This document shows positions 264 through 53,241 of a DNA stretch of 64,000 nt, in pieces. A program made the position numbers and the translations under genes. A model generated the notes under the pieces. It saw nothing but the letters and a program-made list of their open reading frames with translations. It was not told the origin of the DNA and searched no databases. The DNA comes from Natronocalculus amylovorans. Lineage in GTDB: Archaea > Halobacteriota > Halobacteria > Halobacteriales > Haloferacaceae. Location: contig NZ_JAKRVX010000002.1 of the NCBI RefSeq assembly GCF_023638035.1, positions 310,001 to 374,000 on the forward strand, read 5' to 3'. Each line of letters starts with the position of its first letter. The stretch's first letter is position 1.

Positions 264-1811
264 CTACTCGGCTTGTGAGACGGTTGATTGAACCTGAATG
301 CCTGGTTCGCCATCATCCCGTTTTACGAGTCGGGTCACCCCTGTTTTTCCGTGCGCACCCTTGTCTAATCGGATGTATTGGAGATCGCTTTGGTCCTCTA
401 CCCATGTCTCAAATACCTGCTGGGCATCGAACACGTAGAACTCTGCAAGTCGTTCATCCATCGTTCGTGGATTCTGCACGAAAATGATTGTATCGTCATC
501 GGTAAGCAGATTCGCTTGGATCCACCCATGCTGAAAGCGAAGGTCTTTCGCAGAGAGCTCTTGCAGTGCAGTTTCAGAGTAGACGATCGGAACCGCGTCG
601 CGTGATCCGCGTCGCTCGTCGATCGATCGATAGATACGGAAGATACGTTGCATGACGTAGAATCGGTTGTGGGTCAACATACCGGTGAGCCCACGCTTGT
701 GAACACGGTAGATGTTTGGATGATCGTAATCCCAGTCCGCATACCAGTCGATAATGAACAGCCGGTTTTCATCAAGAAGCTGTCCGAGTGACGAGATCCG
801 ACTTGCAATTTTTGTCTCAACCCACTCACGACCAAGGGTTCCCGGAACAAAGATTGGCACTGCAGCGCCAGCAAGCAACGACTCGACAGCAACCTCTGCG
901 ACGATATCACTGACTCGTGCACGGCCATCGTGTGACAGCACAACGGATTGCCCCTTTGAGAGCCCACCGCCACCCAGTTCATCTAATCCAGGAACGCCGG
1001 TTTTCCAGACGCGGCCAACCGGCTGTGTTGGGGACCACCGCGAGACGACGGTTGGTCCATTTCGCGTGATTTCAAACTCATGCATCCGGGTATCGTGATC
1101 GACACCGCGAAGCTTCTCAACACGGAGATATCGGTGGTAATCACCACGGATTGGTTCATGAGAGAGACTAATAACACCGTGTGCCGCAAATCGGAGCAGT
1201 TCAGGTGCAGCAGAGCCGGTTACAGCTCCACTATCCGGCTCTTCTGCGATGAGAAGCGTTGTTGCATCAAACCGATCGGCAAAGAGTCGGATCAGCTCCA
1301 AAATATCCCGCCGGAGAAGATCGGGATTGTCAGCCATCGGGGCAATGCCTGAAAGGCTGTCAACGACAATTCGATCGACCGGCAGATACTCTGTTAGATG
1401 CTCTTCTAAATATTCCGTCGTAAACGGGGCGTAGAAATCATGTGGTCGGTCCTCATCTCGCTGGAGTTCGCTCAACATAAGCCCATCTACACCATCAATT
1501 CGTTGCCCAGGTCGTGCATGAACCGATGCGATCGAAAGGTTTGGATCGTCTAACTCAAACGAAAATGGGGCAAACGAGTCGCACAACTCTTCGCGTGTCT
1601 GTTCAGTTGTTACATAGAGTGCCCGATCGCCATCATCGAGTCCTGCTTGGAGGAACTGCATGGCGAAGGTACTCTTTCCGGTACCCGGTCCCCCCGAAAG
1701 GAGGATCGCCCGGTTCGCGGGGAACCCACCATCAAGCAGGCGATCAAGCCCAGCGTCGCCTGACGGCACTTGTGTAAGTTCGTATTCAGTCTCACCGTAT
1801 ACATCAGCCAT
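264..1811 (-). CDS. Two-domain KaiC-like RecA-superfamily ATPase
   Basis: A 515-residue protein with two KaiC/RecA-type domains. Domain 1 has Walker A GGPGTGKST (about residues 40-48), the tandem acidic residues after VTTEQ typical of KaiC, and a Walker B-like RIVVDSLSG near 150. Domain 2 starts near 272 with GVPGLDELGGGG, but its P-loop position reads SHDGRARV, without the Lys-Thr/Ser pair, so it probably does not hydrolyse ATP. Proteins of this kind are common in haloarchaea, often called HTR-like or KaiC domain proteins, and are thought to act in signalling; the partner is unknown. A TATA-like box sits about 31 bases upstream. No KaiA or KaiB gene is nearby. Confidence 0.85.
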   Translation of the reverse strand: MADVYGETEYELTQVPSGDAGLDRLLDGGFPANRAILLSGGPGTGKSTFAMQFLQAGLDDGDRALYVTTEQTREELCDSFAPFSFELDDPNLSIASVHARPGQRIDGVDGLMLSELQRDEDRPHDFYAPFTTEYLEEHLTEYLPVDRIVVDSLSGIAPMADNPDLLRRDILELIRLFADRFDATTLLIAEEPDSGAVTGSAAPELLRFAAHGVISLSHEPIRGDYHRYLRVEKLRGVDHDTRMHEFEITRNGPTVVSRWSPTQPVGRVWKTGVPGLDELGGGGLSKGQSVVLSHDGRARVSDIVAEVAVESLLAGAAVPIFVPGTLGREWVETKIASRISSLGQLLDENRLFIIDWYADWDYDHPNIYRVHKRGLTGMLTHNRFYVMQRIFRIYRSIDERRGSRDAVPIVYSETALQELSAKDLRFQHGWIQANLLTDDDTIIFVQNPRTMDERLAEFYVFDAQQVFETWVEDQSDLQYIRLDKGAHGKTGVTRLVKRDDGEPGIQVQSTVSQAE

Positions 1812-36975: not shown

Positions 36976-38673
36976 ATGTCCGACCGATCGATCCGTCGGC
37001 TCTCAGATGCGACTGTCAATCAGATTGCTGCAGGGGAGGTGATTACGCGCCCATCGCGAGTTGTTGAAGAACTCCTTGACAATGCGATCGATGCAGCTGC
37101 AAGCCGGATTACGATCGAGGTCGAAGGCGACGGAACCGATCGAATTACAGTCAGTGATACAGGACACGGAATTGCTCGCAAAGACGTTGTACGCGCTCTT
37201 GAGCGGCATACAACAAGTAAGATTCAACCAGAGAGTACCACGCTCATTGAATCCGTCCAAACGTTAGGATTTCGGGGTGAAGCGTTGGCAGCAATTGCTG
37301 ACTGTGCGACAGTGACGGTGGAAACAAATACTGGGGAACCCCGAGGGACAAAAATAACAACGGGTCCGGATGATGAGCCGGTTCGACACGATGTGGGCCA
37401 TGCACAAGGGACCACGGTCACAGCCTCAAATCTATTTGCGAACCGACCCGCACGAAACGCATCGCTCGCAAAACCGGAAACCGAGTTTCGACGGATTACG
37501 GAGGTTGTGAGCGCGTATGCGCTGCTGTATCCGCAGATTCGGTTTGTGTTGCGTCATAATGGTACTGAGACTCTTTCAACAACCGGAACCGGAATAACCG
37601 CATCTGTACTAGGTGTCTACGGCCGAAAAGCGGCACAGCATACACGATCGATCGACCATCGGCAAGCAGTCTCTATTGACCACGGAGGGACTCATGCCCC
37701 ACGCACAACTGAAACGCAGACAGTCCGCATCAGCGGGTTTTTGCTCGCCCCAACGATTGTCCGCCGATCGAACACCCACACGACAGTTGCAATCAACGGC
37801 CGCCCAGTCAGACAGAGTGCCATTAGGGATGCAGTCGTCTCGGGGTATGGATCGCGGCTAGGGTCCAAAGAGTATCCGATCGCAGCGATCTCAGTAACCG
37901 TTCCACACTCCCTTGTCGATCCGAATATCCATCCAGCCAAACAGCGAGTGGGGTTGGTTGGTGAGGATGAGATTGCGGCCGCAGTGTCAAAAGCGATCGA
38001 AACTGCACTCACGTCAGGTGATGAACGAATCGCAGCGCAAACACCAACCGACCTCACGACAGAGCTAGCCGACACAACACCTGATTCGCGCTTCGATCGG
38101 CTCACTGTAATCGGCACGTTTCGTGAGCTGTATATTCTCTGTGAAGCGGCTGATGAGTTACTCGTTATCGACCAGCACGCAGCACACGAGCGGGTGAACT
38201 ACGAACGCCTACAAGCAGCGTTTGCCACGGAACCGATCAGATCGGAGCCGATCGATCCGCCACAAACGGTATCGCTGTCAGCGACAGCACAAGCAGCAAT
38301 GGAGGAGTTTGCGGATGAACTCACCGCATGTGGGTATGAGTACGAGTTGTTCGGCGGCACAGTAGTTCGTGTGACAGCAGTACCGGCTCCGTTCGGACGG
38401 CCAGCGAATCCAGGCTCACTACAAGATGTACTGACCGCGCTTCAACAGGGTATAGAACGACCGCCCAGAGAGCAGTTCCTCGCTTCGCTTGCCTGTCATC
38501 CATCGCTCAAAGCAGGCGACTCACTCTCAGTGGATGATGCACAACTGCTCCTCGATCGGCTTGCAGAGTGTGAGTCACCATATCGATGTCCACATGGCCG
38601 CCCGGTGATGACAACGCTCTCGGAACGGTCAATTGCACAACAACTCGGCAGAAATGTATCTCGGTTCAGGTAG
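36976..38673 (+). CDS. mutL: DNA mismatch repair protein MutL
   Basis: Links MutS to strand removal. The 565-residue protein has the GHKL ATPase motifs NQIAAGEVITRPSRVVEELLDNAIDA, SDTGHGI and RHTTSKI, LGFRGEALAAI and PNIHPAKQRV (NVHPxK-like). The C-terminal domain keeps the endonuclease motif DQHAAHERVNYE (DQHAX2EX4E) and the zinc-site partners LACHPSLKAG and CPHGRPVM, so it should nick DNA itself, as in organisms without MutH. A TATA box stands 28 bases before the ATG. mutS lies 0.8 kb upstream with an unrelated exporter on the other strand. Confidence 0.95.
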   Translation: MSDRSIRRLSDATVNQIAAGEVITRPSRVVEELLDNAIDAAASRITIEVEGDGTDRITVSDTGHGIARKDVVRALERHTTSKIQPESTTLIESVQTLGFRGEALAAIADCATVTVETNTGEPRGTKITTGPDDEPVRHDVGHAQGTTVTASNLFANRPARNASLAKPETEFRRITEVVSAYALLYPQIRFVLRHNGTETLSTTGTGITASVLGVYGRKAAQHTRSIDHRQAVSIDHGGTHAPRTTETQTVRISGFLLAPTIVRRSNTHTTVAINGRPVRQSAIRDAVVSGYGSRLGSKEYPIAAISVTVPHSLVDPNIHPAKQRVGLVGEDEIAAAVSKAIETALTSGDERIAAQTPTDLTTELADTTPDSRFDRLTVIGTFRELYILCEAADELLVIDQHAAHERVNYERLQAAFATEPIRSEPIDPPQTVSLSATAQAAMEEFADELTACGYEYELFGGTVVRVTAVPAPFGRPANPGSLQDVLTALQQGIERPPREQFLASLACHPSLKAGDSLSVDDAQLLLDRLAECESPYRCPHGRPVMTTLSERSIAQQLGRNVSRFR

Positions 38674-38817: not shown

Positions 38818-40904
38818 ATGGTAGTATTGTTTTGTATTGAGGATGAAAAATTAGTAGACTGCATTTATACAGATCTGGACGCGCAGTGTGAGCTTATCCG
38901 TGTTGATGACCTCTCGACCATAGAGCGTGACGCAGACGTGTCTTGTGTCATTGTCGATGATACGCTCGATCGAACGGCACTGATAACGCAGCTTGAGCGA
39001 ATCACAGCGGATGCAGAGATTCCATCGATCATTGTTTCATACAACGGGGATGATCAGCTTGCAGGGTGGGCAAGCCAGCACCCGCAGTGTTATTACACAA
39101 CAAAACAGCTGTTGCAGAGCGGTGAACACAACATTGATTCATTGGTTGATGAAGTTACAACCGTTTCTCAGAAGCTGCAGAGTCAAGACGCAATGGCAGC
39201 AATTGGTGCTGCCGATGAGGGGATTGCCATTCTGGACGGCGAAGGAATATACACGTATGTTAATCAGGCATATGCATCGTCGTACGATCAAACACAAGGG
39301 ACAGTAATCGGTACGCATTGGCAATCACGATATCCAACGGATGAGATTCAGCGGTTTCATACGAATATTTTAAGCGCCGTTGATGAAACAGGATCGTGGA
39401 ACGGAACGGTAACCGCACTGCGTGATGGTGGGAAAACGTTCCCAGAAGCGCTCTCAATCACCAACTTGGACGATGGTGGATACGTTTTCATATCGCGGGA
39501 TATGTCCAACCCCGTTCAACAGCAGACAGAGTTGCAGGTCAAAGACAAAGCGATGAATGAAGCGAACGTCGGGATGGTTCTCACAGATCCAAAACAGCCC
39601 GACAACCCGATTGCTACGCGAATACGGGGTTTTCCCGAATGACGGGATACGACACCGAAAATGTAATTGGGAGAAACTGCCGATTCCTCCAAGGTGAAAA
39701 AACGGATCAAAAAAGCGTTGCATCAATTCGGGATGCGGTGGCTGCTGGTGAGCCGATTGTCACCGAAATATATAATTATCGTGCTGATGGGACACCATTT
39801 TGGAATCGGATTCAAATTGACCCTATTTTCGGACCGGATGGATCGGTGACCCATTTTTTCGGGCTTCAACAAGACATTACGGAGGAAGTCGCCAGGCGCG
39901 AACAGTTAGGGCAGTACGAACAGACAGTCCAAGCTGCAGGAGATCCGATCATTGTTATCGACGATCGTCTTACCGTCTGTGCATGTAATGAGCAGTTCGA
40001 GGCCTTTCTTGACCGCACAAAATCAGAAATCATTGGCTCGGACCTATCGCAGTATATTGAATCCCCACAAAAAGATGAGTTATATATTACGAGCTCAGCA
40101 GGAACAACAAAAATAGAAGCGGTTTTTGAAACGAGAACAAAGCTTCATGCGTTGTGTGAGCTAACGTTTGCTCCACTCAGCGCGCGTGATTCACCTGGTG
40201 ACGCTGTTATTGTGCTCCGTGAAATAACAGCCCAGCGCCAGCGAGAGCAACGACTCGCGGTATTTGATCGAATCCTTCGACACAACATTCGGAATAAAAT
40301 CGGCATTATTCGTGGTCACCTAGAGATTGCAGAAGAAAATACCGAAGCGGACCGATCGGTGGATGCAATTCAAACAGCTCACGAAGGGTCCACAGAACTC
40401 CTCGAACTCGCAGAGAGCGCTCGTCTATTTGAAAAACTCCTGCAACAAGACCGTAATATCGATACGGTCGTGCTCCACTCAGTGTTACAATCCGTTTTCT
40501 CCGGGTCAGAGCGAGATGTATCGCACACAATATGTATCGAAGAAACGCTGTCGATTCAAACAGATAAAGAGCTGCTACAGCAGGTTTGCCAGCTTCTTAT
40601 CCAGCTTGCAATTGCTCACAGAATCGCAAAGCCAACGATATCGATACACATTGAAGAATCAAGCACGATCGATATTGTTGTGACAATGGAGCAGGTACAG
40701 CTTCCAGAGCACGAGTTAGCAGTGATTCAACAGGGTGAAGAAGCACCACTGATCCATAGTGATGGAATACAACTGTGGTTTCTCAAATGGGCGCTTATTG
40801 AGTTGGGTGGCGATATTGACGTTGTGCAACACTCGACCGCTACTGCGGAAGTTCAGCTCTCATTTCCAACAGCACTGTTTCAGAATACCACAGTCGGTCG
40901 ATAG
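38818..40904 (+). pseudogene. LOV/PAS sensor histidine kinase-like gene broken by a one-base frameshift
   Basis: Two open frames overlap by 4 bases: 38818-39642 and 39639-40904. Together they read as receiver-like domain, PAS, LOV-type PAS, PAS and kinase core. At about 39612-39614 the expected NPI-[V]-YANTGFSRMTGYD becomes out of frame: one base appears missing after ATT, giving the stop at 39640. The second frame goes on with ENVIGRNCRFLQ, where Cys at 39678-39680 is the flavin-binding Cys of blue-light LOV domains. The H-box FDRILRHNIRNKIGIIRGH is kept, but the ATPase region lacks Asn-rich N-box and Gly-rich G1 (QLLIQLAIAHR, SDGIQLWFLKWALI). Decay or sequencing error are both possible. Confidence 0.85.
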
Positions 40905-41186
40905 CTACCAGTCCTTACAGCTGGCGCAGACAAAGGAGCCATCATCGCGCCACTGTCGTTGTACAACGGCACCACACTGATCGCAGGCAACACCATCTGG
41001 AGACCATCTGTAGGTTGCAATCGCAGCCGTCGTTTCCGTAGGCGATGTGTTCACGTTCTGTTCGGTGTCCATATCAGTCGTAGCCGATGGAGAGTTGTCA
41101 ACAGCATCTGTATTTGAGGTTGCATTCACAGGAGATTCTTCTGGAGCAGCAAACTCATCGAGCGATCGGTTCTTTTCTGGTGACAT
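40905..41186 (-). CDS. Small acidic protein with C-terminal zinc ribbon
   Basis: A 93-residue protein. The first 60 residues are Thr/Ser/Asp-rich and disordered-looking; the end has CDQCGAVVQRQWRDDGSFVC followed by ASCKDW, a CXXC...CXXC zinc ribbon. I recall similar haloarchaeal proteins beside lysS (DUF7573-like), function unknown. Its stop lies against the stop of the converging kinase pseudogene, with no bases between. It follows lysS by 13 bases? No: on the minus strand it lies upstream of nothing and its start at 41186 is 14 bases after the lysS stop at 41200, so it may be co-transcribed with lysS. Confidence 0.7.
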   Translation of the reverse strand: MSPEKNRSLDEFAAPEESPVNATSNTDAVDNSPSATTDMDTEQNVNTSPTETTAAIATYRWSPDGVACDQCGAVVQRQWRDDGSFVCASCKDW

Positions 41187-41199
41187 GGTTTCGGTTTGG

Positions 41200-42867
41200 T
41201 TATGCTACTCGACGGAGCCGGTCAACGACGAAGGCTTGTTCGAGTTCTCCGAGGAACTCGCCAAGCCGTGGACCCTGTGTCTCATCGAAAAAGAGACGAT
41301 AGCCTGCTTCGAACAGTGCGCTCACTTCGATATCGTTTGCTCGTGCGGTGTCGTAGATCGCGCCTTGAATCTCCTCACCTGTATGGCCCTCAGAAACGAA
41401 GGCTGCAAGATCGTCTAGTGCTGCAGTAACATCTGACTCAAAGGAGACGTCCGGAAGCTCCGTCTGAAGCCGGTAGTTGTAGGCGTTATCCATTCGCTCG
41501 GCCCATTGTCGTGCCTTTTCAACGCGAGCCAGTGCACGGTCGATCGCTTCGTCACTTGCATCCGCAGGGATATGTCCTTCATCACGAGCAAGCTGTTCGC
41601 GGAATGTCGGATCATCAACCATTCCAAGCACTGCAGCGAACGTGTATGGAAGCCGGATTCGATCGGGGTCGATCGACGCAACAACAAACGGGTAGGCTCG
41701 TTCTGCAAACCGGGTAAGATCGTCGTCATCGACCTCACCAAAGTATGCTTGCTCGAAGCGGTCGAAGTTATCAACAAGCTGATCAAGCCGTGAGAGGTCA
41801 AGATCGCGTGCTTTCTTTGGATTTAATGCAAAGAAGTATCGGAGCACTTCGGGCTCAAGCAGTTCGAGAATCTCTGGAACAGTGACGATGTTTCCAGCGG
41901 ACGAGGAGAGCGCCTCACCATTGAGTGTGAACCACTCATACACCATTGGCACTGGTGGTTCGATACCAAGCACGTTGCGAGCGATATCCGCACCGGACGG
42001 CCATGACCCTTCCGCGTGGTCCTTTCCAAACGGCTCGAAATCAACACCGAGAACCTGCCACTGCCCCGGCCATTCGAATCGCCATGGGAGTTTTCCTTCA
42101 CGGAACGTCGCGGTCCCTTCATATCCACAGCCATCGATCGTATTGTCGCCAACGGTCATATCTGTACAGACGTACGAAACCGTCTCTGCATCAAGATCAA
42201 TCTCGGTGATCGTTTCGGTGATCTTCCCACAGGATTCACAGACCGGATTGAACGGAATATACTCCTCATCAACCTTTGACTGATACTGTGACAGCACGTT
42301 ACGGGCGTTCTCGATATCGGAGAGCACCGTGTGTGTAACCGGATCGAACACGCCATCTGCGTACAGTTCAGTGTTCGAAAGCATCTCAACTGGGACGCCA
42401 AGTCGATCTGCATCTGCTTTCAGCAGGCTTGCAAAGTGTGCTGCGTATGAGTCGCTCTCCCCAAATGGATCTGGGATCGCCGTGTATGGCTTTCCAAGGT
42501 TTCGGCCAAGTGCACCAGCATCAACCTCACCAAGGCCAACAATTTCACCCTCGCTGTTTGCAAGTTTGCGTGGAAGCTTTCGGAGCGGGTCTTTATCATC
42601 CGATGTAAACACTTGGCGTACCTCGTGCCCGCGTTCTCTGAGCACTTCTGCAACAAAGTACCCACGCATGATCTCATTGAAATTACCCAAATGAGCTACT
42701 CCTGACGGTGAAACACCGCCTTTGATCACGATCGGCTCATCCGGATTGCGGGCTTCGATCGCATCTGCAACCTCATCGGCCCAGAAGGCATGATGGACGA
42801 TTTCCTGATTATCTTCATCTTCTTCAGGCGCGGACAACGTGTGCGGGGATGTGTTTGTGTCACTCAT
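41200..42867 (-). CDS. lysS: Lysyl-tRNA synthetase, class I
   Basis: Charges tRNA-Lys with lysine. The archaeal class I enzyme: KGGVSPSGVAHLGNFNEIMRGYF carries the HIGH-like HLGN near residue 57 and ALSSSAGNIVTV the KMSKS-like loop. CESCGKITETITEIDLDAETVSYVCTD contains the zinc-binding Cys pairs, and the C-terminal part is helical. 555 residues. Its start shares one base with the stop of the uridylate kinase gene (ATG at 42865-42867, TAA at 42867-42869 on the minus strand), showing co-translation. Most archaea have either this class I enzyme or a class II LysRS. Confidence 0.96.
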   Translation of the reverse strand: MSDTNTSPHTLSAPEEDEDNQEIVHHAFWADEVADAIEARNPDEPIVIKGGVSPSGVAHLGNFNEIMRGYFVAEVLRERGHEVRQVFTSDDKDPLRKLPRKLANSEGEIVGLGEVDAGALGRNLGKPYTAIPDPFGESDSYAAHFASLLKADADRLGVPVEMLSNTELYADGVFDPVTHTVLSDIENARNVLSQYQSKVDEEYIPFNPVCESCGKITETITEIDLDAETVSYVCTDMTVGDNTIDGCGYEGTATFREGKLPWRFEWPGQWQVLGVDFEPFGKDHAEGSWPSGADIARNVLGIEPPVPMVYEWFTLNGEALSSSAGNIVTVPEILELLEPEVLRYFFALNPKKARDLDLSRLDQLVDNFDRFEQAYFGEVDDDDLTRFAERAYPFVVASIDPDRIRLPYTFAAVLGMVDDPTFREQLARDEGHIPADASDEAIDRALARVEKARQWAERMDNAYNYRLQTELPDVSFESDVTAALDDLAAFVSEGHTGEEIQGAIYDTARANDIEVSALFEAGYRLFFDETQGPRLGEFLGELEQAFVVDRLRRVA

Positions 42868-49784: not shown

Positions 49785-51521
49785 ATGGTTGATGCCGTCA
49801 CAATTGCTGCTGATTTTGCGCTGATTATTGTGACCGCGGTAACGCTGAGCTACATTGCACGGCTGACCGGCCAACCGGCGATCGTCGCATATATTTTCAC
49901 GGGCTTAGTCCTTGGCCCAGTCTTTCTTGATGTCGTTACAGAAGAAGGACTTATTGAGCTTATGGCCGAGCTTGGCCTTGGGTTCCTGCTCTTTTTATTA
50001 GGGTTGAAAATGCGGATCGACGATATCCGTGAAATCTTGCGGCCGATTATAAATATCGCGATCTGGCAGACAATTCTACAGACCGCATTGGCGTTTGCGA
50101 TTGCATATGTGCTTGGGTTTACACTGGTCCAAACAACGATAATTGCACTTGCAACGGTCTTTGGTGCAACCCCGATCATTGTCAAGTTGCTTGGTGATAA
50201 AGACGAACTGACATCGTTGCCAGGGAAGATAGACGTCGGTGTGCTTATTCTCCAAGATATCTATCTGGTTGTGCTGCTTGCCGTTCTTGGGGCAGAGTAG
50301 TTCGGTGATCCTAGTGCAATCGTCGTTGAAATTGGGACCATTTTTGCACTGATGGGTGCGATCGGGGTCTTTTCATATATTGCGGCTCGCTATCTGCTGC
50401 CATGGCTGTTCCGACAGGCAGCTGGTGATCGAGAGACGTTCTTTATTCTCGGAATTGCGTGGGCATTCCTCTTTATTTTCGCCTCCGAGGAGCTAAACCT
50501 CTCAATCGAGGTTGGTGCGTTTCTTGCGGGGTTAAGTCTCGCACAGGTACAGTACACAAGCGAACTCACAGAGCGCGTTCGCCCGATTACGGACCTCTTT
50601 ATGATGGTGTTCTTTTCCAGTATTGGGCTCCGGATCGCTGCAGATGAGCTCCTGTTGTACTGGCAGGAAGCAGTGATCGCATCAGCAGTGCTTATGATTG
50701 GGAACTTCGCAATCATGTTCTTCCTCATCAACTATGAGGACTTCACTCCGGAGACGTCGTTCCTTGGCAGCATCAACATGGTTCAGGTGAGCGAGTTCTC
50801 ACTTGTTGTTGGTGCGCTTGCAGTCAGCCAAGGCTTTGTTGGCGAACCAATTCTCGGCTATCTTAGCCTCATGGCAATCCTTACAATGAGTCTCTCGACG
50901 TACTTGATCAAGTATAACCACCAGATCTACGATCGAACGAAGCCAATCTGGGATCGGTTTGACAGTCCAGATAAAAAAGATGTTGAGCTTAAGATGTACG
51001 ACAATCACGCAGTGGTCATCGGCTTAGATGAAGTGACAAAGCCAGTATTGCCAGCGCTCAAAGACCGGGTTGGCGATGTCGTGATTGTCGATCGAAACCC
51101 ACAGACTGCAGACGAGTTTGCAGATAGCGAGTATGACGTTATCTACGGTGATTTCAAACACAGCGAACTTCGAAAAGAGGCAGGGTTGAAGCGTGCAGCA
51201 GTGGTGCTGTCGTCATCTGTTCAATCGGAGATCAACCAGATTGCAATTCGAGAAGCGAATGATGATGCAATCGTCATTGTTGAAGCGGGCACTGTTGATC
51301 AGGCGCTCGATCGGTATGAAGAAGGAGCCCACTACGTTACGATCCCAACTGTACTGACCGGGCTAAAGATTAGAGCATATCTTGAAGAGTACTTCACCGA
51401 TCGAGAGGGATTCTTTGAGACCGTGCGCGAAGATGTAAAACGGCTCCAAGCTGCGAATGAATCAGGTAGCTATCTTACAGATGGTGGCAAAGCAACTGAG
51501 GAGGTGAACACAGATGAGTGA
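49785..51521 (+). pseudogene. Kef-type cation/proton antiporter interrupted by an in-frame TAG
   Basis: The frame runs from ATG 49785 to TAG 50298-50300 and then stays open, in the same frame, to 51521. Read through, it would be a 578-residue CPA2 antiporter with about twelve helices (LTGQPAIVAYIFTGLVLGP, GLLLFLLGLKMRIDDIREIL region) and a C-terminal TrkA-N domain (HAVVIGLDEVTKPVLPALKD). The TAG falls in VLLAVLGAE-TAG-FGDPSAIVVEIG, where other family members have a residue. TAG ends many genes here, so readthrough is unlikely. A single base change or a sequencing error explains it. Its TrkA-N glycine motif is already degenerate (VIGLDEV). Its end overlaps the next antiporter. Confidence 0.9.
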
Positions 51522-53241
51522 ACTCATTGCCCCACTTGCATTCGTCTTTATTGGTTCTGCGATACTGCTGCTTCTAGTAAGCCGCATTGGACTCCCTGCA
51601 GTACCATTGTATATTGTCGTCGGGCTAGCAATTGGAGAGTTCATTCCACCTGGGCTGACGCTCGAGCTTGCACAGCTTGGGATTGCGTTTTTGGTATTCG
51701 TCTTTGGTGTAAATGTTGAGCCAGAGCGGTTCTTTTCAGTCGCCCGCGATAGCGAGTACGTTGCTGCGGCACAGCTGTTCATTGTTGGTGGCGCAACCTT
51801 TGCAGTCGGGTTCTTATTAGGCTTAGAGCCTGTTTCTGCCGCGTTTTTTGCGACAGCCGCCTCACTAAGCTCTTCGCTTGTCGGACGTAAACTTGCGAAA
51901 ACCGATATCAGAGAGAATCTGATTCATGGCAGACTCACTGAGTCGATTCATTTCGTTCAGGACCTGTTTGCGATTGGGATCATCCTCGTGTTGAGTTCAG
52001 CAGTCTTCATCCCAGAGGCTGCGACAACGGGAACTGTGCTTGACGGCGTTGCACTCCCGCTTGGCTATGGTGTGATGATTCTGGGAGTAGCGCTCGCAAT
52101 TCGCGTGTACCTGTTTGATTTCCTCGTTTCCCTCTCTGGAGACTCAGATGAGCTGATCATGCTCACGTCGATCGCGCTGTTGATCTCGTTCCTTGCGCTC
52201 TCGGAATTTGTGGGAGTCTCAATTGCAGTCGGTGCATTCGCGGCCGGGCTGGCAATCACTCGTGATTTCGATGCGAACCTGTCTCTCCAGTCGGCACTTG
52301 AATCAATTGAGACGTTCTTTACGGCAATTTTCTTTGTGACGCTTGGAAGTCTTGTTGCGATACCAAACGTGGATGTAGTTGCGCTTGCGATAGCCCTTGG
52401 CGTGTCGATCGTTATTCTCAAACCGGTAGTAACAATTGTGGTACTGATTCGAGAAGGATACGATGCTCGGACCGCTTGTTTAACAAGTTTCAGTTTGGAT
52501 CAGGTGAGTGAGTTCTCACTGATTTTAGCAATTAGTGGACTGCTTGCGGGACAGATCACACAGCAGCTATTTGAAGTGATCATTCTCGCATCAGCAGTAA
52601 CGATGATTACCTCGACAATTACGTACCAGTACGATGATCGTATCTATCGGGCATTCGCTCGAACCGGCGTGTTCGACCGTGTGAACACACCGAACATCGA
52701 ACATGGGATAGAGACAGCAAAGCCGCTTGAGGATCACGTGATTGTCATTGGGTATGGAAAACTCGGCAGCGGTGTTACCGCAGTCTGTCGTGATAACGAG
52801 ACAACAGTTGTGATCGTCGAGAGCGATCCGGACCGATATGAACTTGCTCGTGACTTCCATGACACGTGTGTGTTTGGAGATGCGATGAGCGAGCAGACCT
52901 GGGAACGACTGAATCCTTCGGCTGCAAAAGCAATTATTTCAACCTCATCTCAGCGTGGGCTCTCCTCGTATCTGCTCTCAAAAGAGACAGATGCAGACCT
53001 GATTCTTCGTGCCGATCGGATCCCGGAGGCGATCGAACTGCATAATCAAGGAGCAGCATATGTTACTGTTCCTGATTTCCTTGCCAGCGAGCAGTTTGGA
53101 GAAACCATCTCTCGACTTCTTGAGGCGGATGCAGAACCAACCGCACTTCGGGAAGAAAACAGGCGATTGCTTCGAGAGCAGGTCTCCGATGCACGCATTG
53201 TCGGGCAGTTCCCGGTGGATTATTTGGAGTATCATCGGTAG
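51514..53241 (+). CDS. Kef-type cation/proton antiporter with TrkA-N domain
   Basis: A 575-residue CPA2 transporter, intact. It has about twelve membrane helices in the first 380 residues, with RIGLPAVPLYIVVGLAIGEFIP, GIAFLVFVFGVNVEPERFF and a Gly/Asp-rich centre, and then a soluble TrkA-N/RCK domain with a good Rossmann motif VIVIGYGKLGSGVTAV and binding-site VVIVESDPDRY. Such proteins expel monovalent cations in exchange for protons and are gated by nucleotides, which suits osmotic or pH control in a halophile. It starts 8 bases inside the end of the broken sister gene, to which it is related, a likely tandem duplicate. Confidence 0.9.
   Translation: MSELIAPLAFVFIGSAILLLLVSRIGLPAVPLYIVVGLAIGEFIPPGLTLELAQLGIAFLVFVFGVNVEPERFFSVARDSEYVAAAQLFIVGGATFAVGFLLGLEPVSAAFFATAASLSSSLVGRKLAKTDIRENLIHGRLTESIHFVQDLFAIGIILVLSSAVFIPEAATTGTVLDGVALPLGYGVMILGVALAIRVYLFDFLVSLSGDSDELIMLTSIALLISFLALSEFVGVSIAVGAFAAGLAITRDFDANLSLQSALESIETFFTAIFFVTLGSLVAIPNVDVVALAIALGVSIVILKPVVTIVVLIREGYDARTACLTSFSLDQVSEFSLILAISGLLAGQITQQLFEVIILASAVTMITSTITYQYDDRIYRAFARTGVFDRVNTPNIEHGIETAKPLEDHVIVIGYGKLGSGVTAVCRDNETTVVIVESDPDRYELARDFHDTCVFGDAMSEQTWERLNPSAAKAIISTSSQRGLSSYLLSKETDADLILRADRIPEAIELHNQGAAYVTVPDFLASEQFGETISRLLEADAEPTALREENRRLLREQVSDARIVGQFPVDYLEYHR

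Follow-up and report, generated by a model that had tools for sequence, protein, structure and literature searches.

KaiC is the ATPase of the cyanobacterial clock. Makarova et al. are said to have described, in 2017, KaiC ATPases as signaling hubs in archaea, with genes that are linked to those of two-component proteins. For light entrainment in archaea, we know of no receptor. Archaeal LOV kinases have been described, for example the Lake Diamante LOV set and ALovD-1 of Halonotius (PMC12202551). Archaea also contain "HisKA, no HATPase" proteins, which are histidine kinase-like but nonenzymatic and which are known largely from Archaeoglobi and Methanomicrobia (Galperin et al. 2018, PMC5847659); the same article discusses KaiC as an archaeal signaling hub. 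Here we describe a haloarchaeal LOV gene that is broken by one missing base. By itself, a broken gene is ordinary; this one points to a family whose members often combine an intact LOV domain with a kinase domain that is missing its ATP-binding residues, beside KaiC. We consider it likely that the locus is one REC-like/PAS/LOV/PAS/kinase-like gene that was displaced from a KaiC context and is redundant, and that it encoded a LOV pseudokinase until it was recently cut by a one-base deletion.

The gene lies in a window of 64,000 nucleotides (the whole stretch of DNA that was analyzed) and is read from the forward strand in two frames. The N-terminal open reading frame (38818-39642, 274 amino acids, with TGA at 39640-39642) encodes a REC-like domain, a PAS domain, and the first strands of a LOV domain. 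The C-terminal one (39639-40904) encodes the remainder of the LOV domain, a second PAS domain, a HisKA-like domain, and a HATPase-like domain, and it starts with an ATG that shares two bases with the TGA of the N-terminal frame (ATGA). According to the list of open reading frames and the sequence, this +2 frame is open from 39561 to 40904 (447 codons), and the ATG at 39639 is the first one in it. The original prediction was that the two frames are a single gene, with the shift at 39612-39614. The homologs agree: the stretch that spans the break (xxPxxYxNxxFxxxTGY in the alignment) is unbroken in all 39 of them, as for example in DEATLGISITDPDRPNNPIVYVNDRFCQLTGYDREAALGRNCRFLQ. Therefore, a base is missing at 39613-39614, inside the LOV domain, between the codons ATT (39610-39612) and TAC (39615-39617); the predicted location stands, and the homologs narrow it. 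In translation, the N frame reads NEANVGMVLTDPKQPDNPI at the break, then ATRIRGFPE and a stop; the C frame is entered at YANTGFSRMTGYDTENVIGRNCRFLQ and reads YANTGFSRMTGYD...GRNCRFLQ. Codon usage, scored across 258 genes of the contig, changes frame at the same place. Among these genes, the two halves are ordinary though low-scoring (14th percentile for the N half and 10th for the C half).

With the frame corrected, the domain order is the predicted one (REC-PAS-LOV-PAS-kinase), as judged from Pfam and the alignment of homologs, with REC weak. The receiver-like domain (38818-39177) is degenerate: in an alignment with 16 homologs, the phospho-acceptor Asp is kept (VDD) and the conserved Lys of LQKGG is replaced (LQSGE), and Pfam found no match to Response_reg in the N half. 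Pfam places the first PAS domain at 39214-39510 (PF08448, PAS_4, 2e-9). The LOV domain (39559-39884; PF13426, PAS_9, 4e-23; delimited with the alignments) is divided between the two frames, so that neither one contains it whole. As predicted, frame correction restores its photoactive Cys in GRNCRFLQ, with the codon at 39678-39680 in the alignment, and 28 of 30 near-invariant LOV residues are kept. The second PAS domain (39912-40241, from Pfam) is followed by the H-box (RILRHNIRNK), in which the alignment shows that the phospho-acceptor His (40281-40283) is kept; the HisKA match in the C half has an E value of 0.056. The HATPase-like domain (40563-40868, from Pfam and the alignment) scores 17.7 bits (E = 0.005) against HATPase_c, where the curated cutoff is 26.4 bits. 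The best matches of the N half are REC-PAS-LOV proteins from the same family of genomes (31-37% identity), and those of the C half are RHNxRNK kinases from other families (33-36% identity), which suggests that the gene is a domain-shuffled mosaic. Over LOV-PAS-HisKA-HATPase (about 400 amino acids), the C half is homologous to a KaiC-linked family, at 29-36% identity.

The neighboring genes are mutL (36976-38673, forward strand), a DUF7573 zinc-ribbon gene (40905-41186, reverse strand), and lysS, which encodes a class I lysyl-tRNA synthetase (41200-42867, reverse strand). In four relatives (G001, G010, G011, and G013), mutL, which is the left end of this conserved cluster, adjoins the DUF7573 gene, and lysS is with them; there is no kinase gene, and in G001 the gap between mutL and the DUF7573 gene is just a dozen bases or so. 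Judging by this gene order, the broken LOV gene is a lineage-specific insert into the conserved cluster, since the relatives have the cluster without it. A comparison with the same locus in relatives had been suggested as a check on the break. In our set, which includes one genome of the genus, the locus could be found, but with the kinase gene absent from it, the comparison leaves the break unsettled.

It had also seemed surprising that a broken gene should lie next to intact ones. We do not share this view: the gene is a lineage-specific insert, and a second broken gene lies about 10 kb away. This is a Na+/H+ antiporter gene (PF00999 and TrkA_N; 49785-51521, forward strand) interrupted by one in-frame TAG (50298-50300) at a position that encodes Ser or Arg in intact orthologs (61-68% identical). 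Apart from this TAG, its frame is open, and after it comes an intact paralog (51514-53241). Both breaks are in genes that are missing from some relatives, as expected of real gene loss.

We also considered whether the missing base might be a sequencing or assembly error, so that the organism itself has an intact gene, which encodes a LOV pseudokinase. An error would fit a 2.1-kb gene that is open and coding-like except for one indel, and an assembly in 20 contigs that came from an isolate or a metagenome; the finding was also picked for being broken, which brings a look-elsewhere bias. However, there is no homopolymer at the deletion site. We estimated the background of frameshifts by comparing about 454 kb of contig with 1.6 Mb of one relative (G001), after antisense shadow frames and false starts were taken out; the antiporter gene has no close match in G001 and is outside this baseline. 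Across 321 conserved genes (185 kb), the only frameshift was the one in the broken LOV gene. When random one-base deletions were spiked in, the same method detected 50 of 80 (62%). This gives a sensitivity-corrected 95% upper bound of about one background frameshift per 38 kb, so an error in the LOV gene itself is unlikely, although the bound still permits one or two errors per 64-kb window and the window was picked for showing one. Weakened constraint is visible in other ways as well (a long branch, the losses in REC and the ATP site, and the redundant LOV kinases), which also argues against an error. Overall, we think that this explanation is unlikely. Two signs of further errors were rejected. 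Apparent stops in ribosomal genes, which might have indicated a high assembly error rate, were antisense shadow frames or stretches 5' of the true starts. At C12:281-283 kb, what looked like a shift reflects two separate ABC ATPase genes whose counterpart in G001 is fused.

Thus, the break in the LOV gene is probably real and recent, with assembly error as the alternative. We found no further stop or shift in either half of the 2.1-kb gene, which fits the predicted recent loss of a sensor gene, and the gene has the marks of a recent pseudogene: its disruption is absent from the homologs, and the rest of it is intact.

A split gene might still function, either because the C half is translated by reinitiation at the ATGA or because a -1 slip yields the full-length protein. 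In Haloferax volcanii, translation is tightly coupled at ATGA overlaps and reinitiation is efficient (PMC6728339), so the C half may be made in this way, but it would lack the first LOV strands. Also, the ATGA arises automatically, as the LOV Met precedes a codon that starts with A. For slippage, the N frame contains the heptamer G_GGT_TTT (39627-39633, forward strand), in the right register ahead of the stop, at which a -1 slip enters the C frame. However, such a heptamer is present after 6.4% of random deletions and is probably there by chance, and we found no RNA structure 3' of it (z = -0.09), so we rejected programmed -1 frameshifting; slippage would also replace YANT. None of the 39 homologs is split. 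A functional split gene therefore seems highly improbable.

The original prediction held that the ATP-binding part lacks the N-box and the G1 glycines. The alignment of homologs confirms this and adds damage to G2: the N-box Asn (40602-40604) is now Gln, the G1 box DxGxG (40686-40700) is now MEQVQ, and the G2 box GxG is now GIQ, with Gln in place of the second Gly (40770-40772). The six canonical ATP-site residues (N-box Asn; G1 Asp, Gly, and Gly; G2 Gly and Gly) are QMQQGQ in the broken gene. Five of the six are changed, whereas the LOV domain and the H-box are conserved.

These losses might postdate the frameshift and be ordinary pseudogene decay, and the prediction took them as a sign of the same decay. 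The HATPase domain of the broken gene is indeed the most divergent of 40. We disfavor this explanation and give it little credence: the frame contains neither a stop nor a second indel, the LOV and H-box residues are conserved, and intact-frame homologs under purifying selection show similar losses. In 10 of the 39 homologs, all with intact frames, neither the N-box Asn nor the G1 Asp remains (for example, RHGRGG, RTTNGE, HFGAGR, and SSGPGG at the six positions). The strongly degenerate state takes three changes on the tree, which, as reconstructed, requires that ATP-site loss arose more than once. In the HATPase domain, dN/dS is 0.18-0.42 for pairs of species with degenerate sites and 0.24-0.31 for pairs with mostly intact sites; by this measure, the degenerate domains of the homologs are maintained without the canonical motifs. 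We infer from the motifs that these domains probably do not bind ATP. The broken gene is outside the other degenerate groups on the tree, with uncertain placement (support 63/40), and its end branch is 1.87, versus a median of 0.23. The loss of the ATP site is part of a wider pattern in intact relatives, which is more interesting than the break itself.

The genes for these relatives are often found next to kaiC. A gene for a two-domain KaiC is directly upstream, on the same strand, at 27 or more of the 39 homologs (a minimum, as the flank was only 1.5 kb at most loci), and it is upstream of 12 of the 13 homologs without the N-box Asn. This arrangement suggests that the haloarchaeal LOV kinase family provides KaiC with a light input. 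The broken LOV gene has no KaiC gene upstream; mutL is there instead. At several loci (L236:1399-4751, from Halobacteriales QH_7_66_36, L238, L241:1527-4751, L247, and others without names), the KaiC gene (PF06745 twice) ends a few bases upstream of a PAS-LOV-(pseudo)kinase gene on the same strand, and this operon recurs across Halobacteria. In the KaiC-linked homolog at L241:2976-4751, the N-box is degenerate and the LOV motif has Pro rather than Cys (GRNPRYLQ). In the open-access literature (subscription papers were outside the search), we found no article that treats KaiC, haloarchaea, and LOV together, and no description of an operon of KaiC with a LOV (pseudo)kinase.

The same genome encodes two other Cys-bearing LOV kinases (GENCRFLQ at L029 and GQNCRFLQ at L030). 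Its KaiC ortholog (45% identity) is on contig C2 (C2:334276-335706). The gene for a 625-amino-acid kinase follows that of the KaiC ortholog (L316/L034 region; C2 near 332400-335706). In this kinase, the ATP site is intact (LLTNAVTHSD, DDGPGIP, and GLGLW), but the LOV motif is without the Cys (GENPRIFQ), with Pro instead, so it is the mirror image of the broken gene's protein. The two proteins could once have split sensing and catalysis between them, and it is an attractive guess that the broken gene's protein was a light input to the KaiC-linked kinase or to KaiC. We also noticed a LOV-like PAS domain with Ala for Cys (GKNARVLQ) in a 656-amino-acid open frame (L005/L033; C2 near 239600). Within the window, a protein of the KaiC superfamily (264-1811, reverse strand, 515 amino acids) belongs to a different subfamily from the LOV-linked KaiC (26% identity).

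In the history that we favor, a gene for a cytoplasmic protein would have entered the mutL-DUF7573-lysS cluster, or been rearranged into it, in this lineage. The C-terminal half belongs to the haloarchaeal family whose genes are mostly directly downstream of one for a two-domain KaiC. In members of that family, blue light would probably form a flavin-Cys adduct in the LOV domain, and a change in the HisKA dimer would then act on KaiC or on a partner kinase. With its ATP-binding motifs and the REC Lys lost and its LOV domain and H-box kept, the gene would have encoded a LOV pseudokinase without a KaiC neighbor before the break; light sensing, flavin binding, and the absence of ATP binding are predicted properties of this protein. 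A later one-base deletion would have split the LOV domain. At present, the gene would yield a REC-PAS fragment, with termination-reinitiation at the ATGA perhaps giving a C-terminal one as well. Neither would contain a complete LOV domain, so the protein should no longer sense light. As two or more further Cys-bearing LOV kinases are encoded in the genome, this loss would be tolerated. More tentatively, we propose a class of LOV histidine pseudokinases in haloarchaea, derived repeatedly from LOV kinases in KaiC operons, that may, with no autophosphorylation of their own, relay light signals to a partner kinase or to a KaiC ATPase; the broken gene would be a displaced member. If these pseudokinases work, they would allow a direct test of a light route to KaiC in archaea.

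Of the described systems, haloarchaeal LOV histidine kinases share the multi-PAS LOV architecture, with REC or PAS before and the kinase after, as well as GRNCRFLQ and the FWN strand; unlike them, the broken gene has a frame break and a lost ATP site, and the available part of their description (PMC12202551) mentions neither pseudokinases nor KaiC. The "HisKA, no HATPase" proteins (PMC5847659) also keep the phospho-acceptor His and are not expected to have kinase activity, but they have no recognizable HATPase domain, whereas the broken gene has the domain and its motifs are gone. The pseudokinase RocA, which partners CovS (PMC7380576), is a histidine kinase homolog that has no kinase activity and whose target could be a partner kinase, as we suggest here; however, it is a bacterial membrane protein, with no LOV domain and no KaiC.
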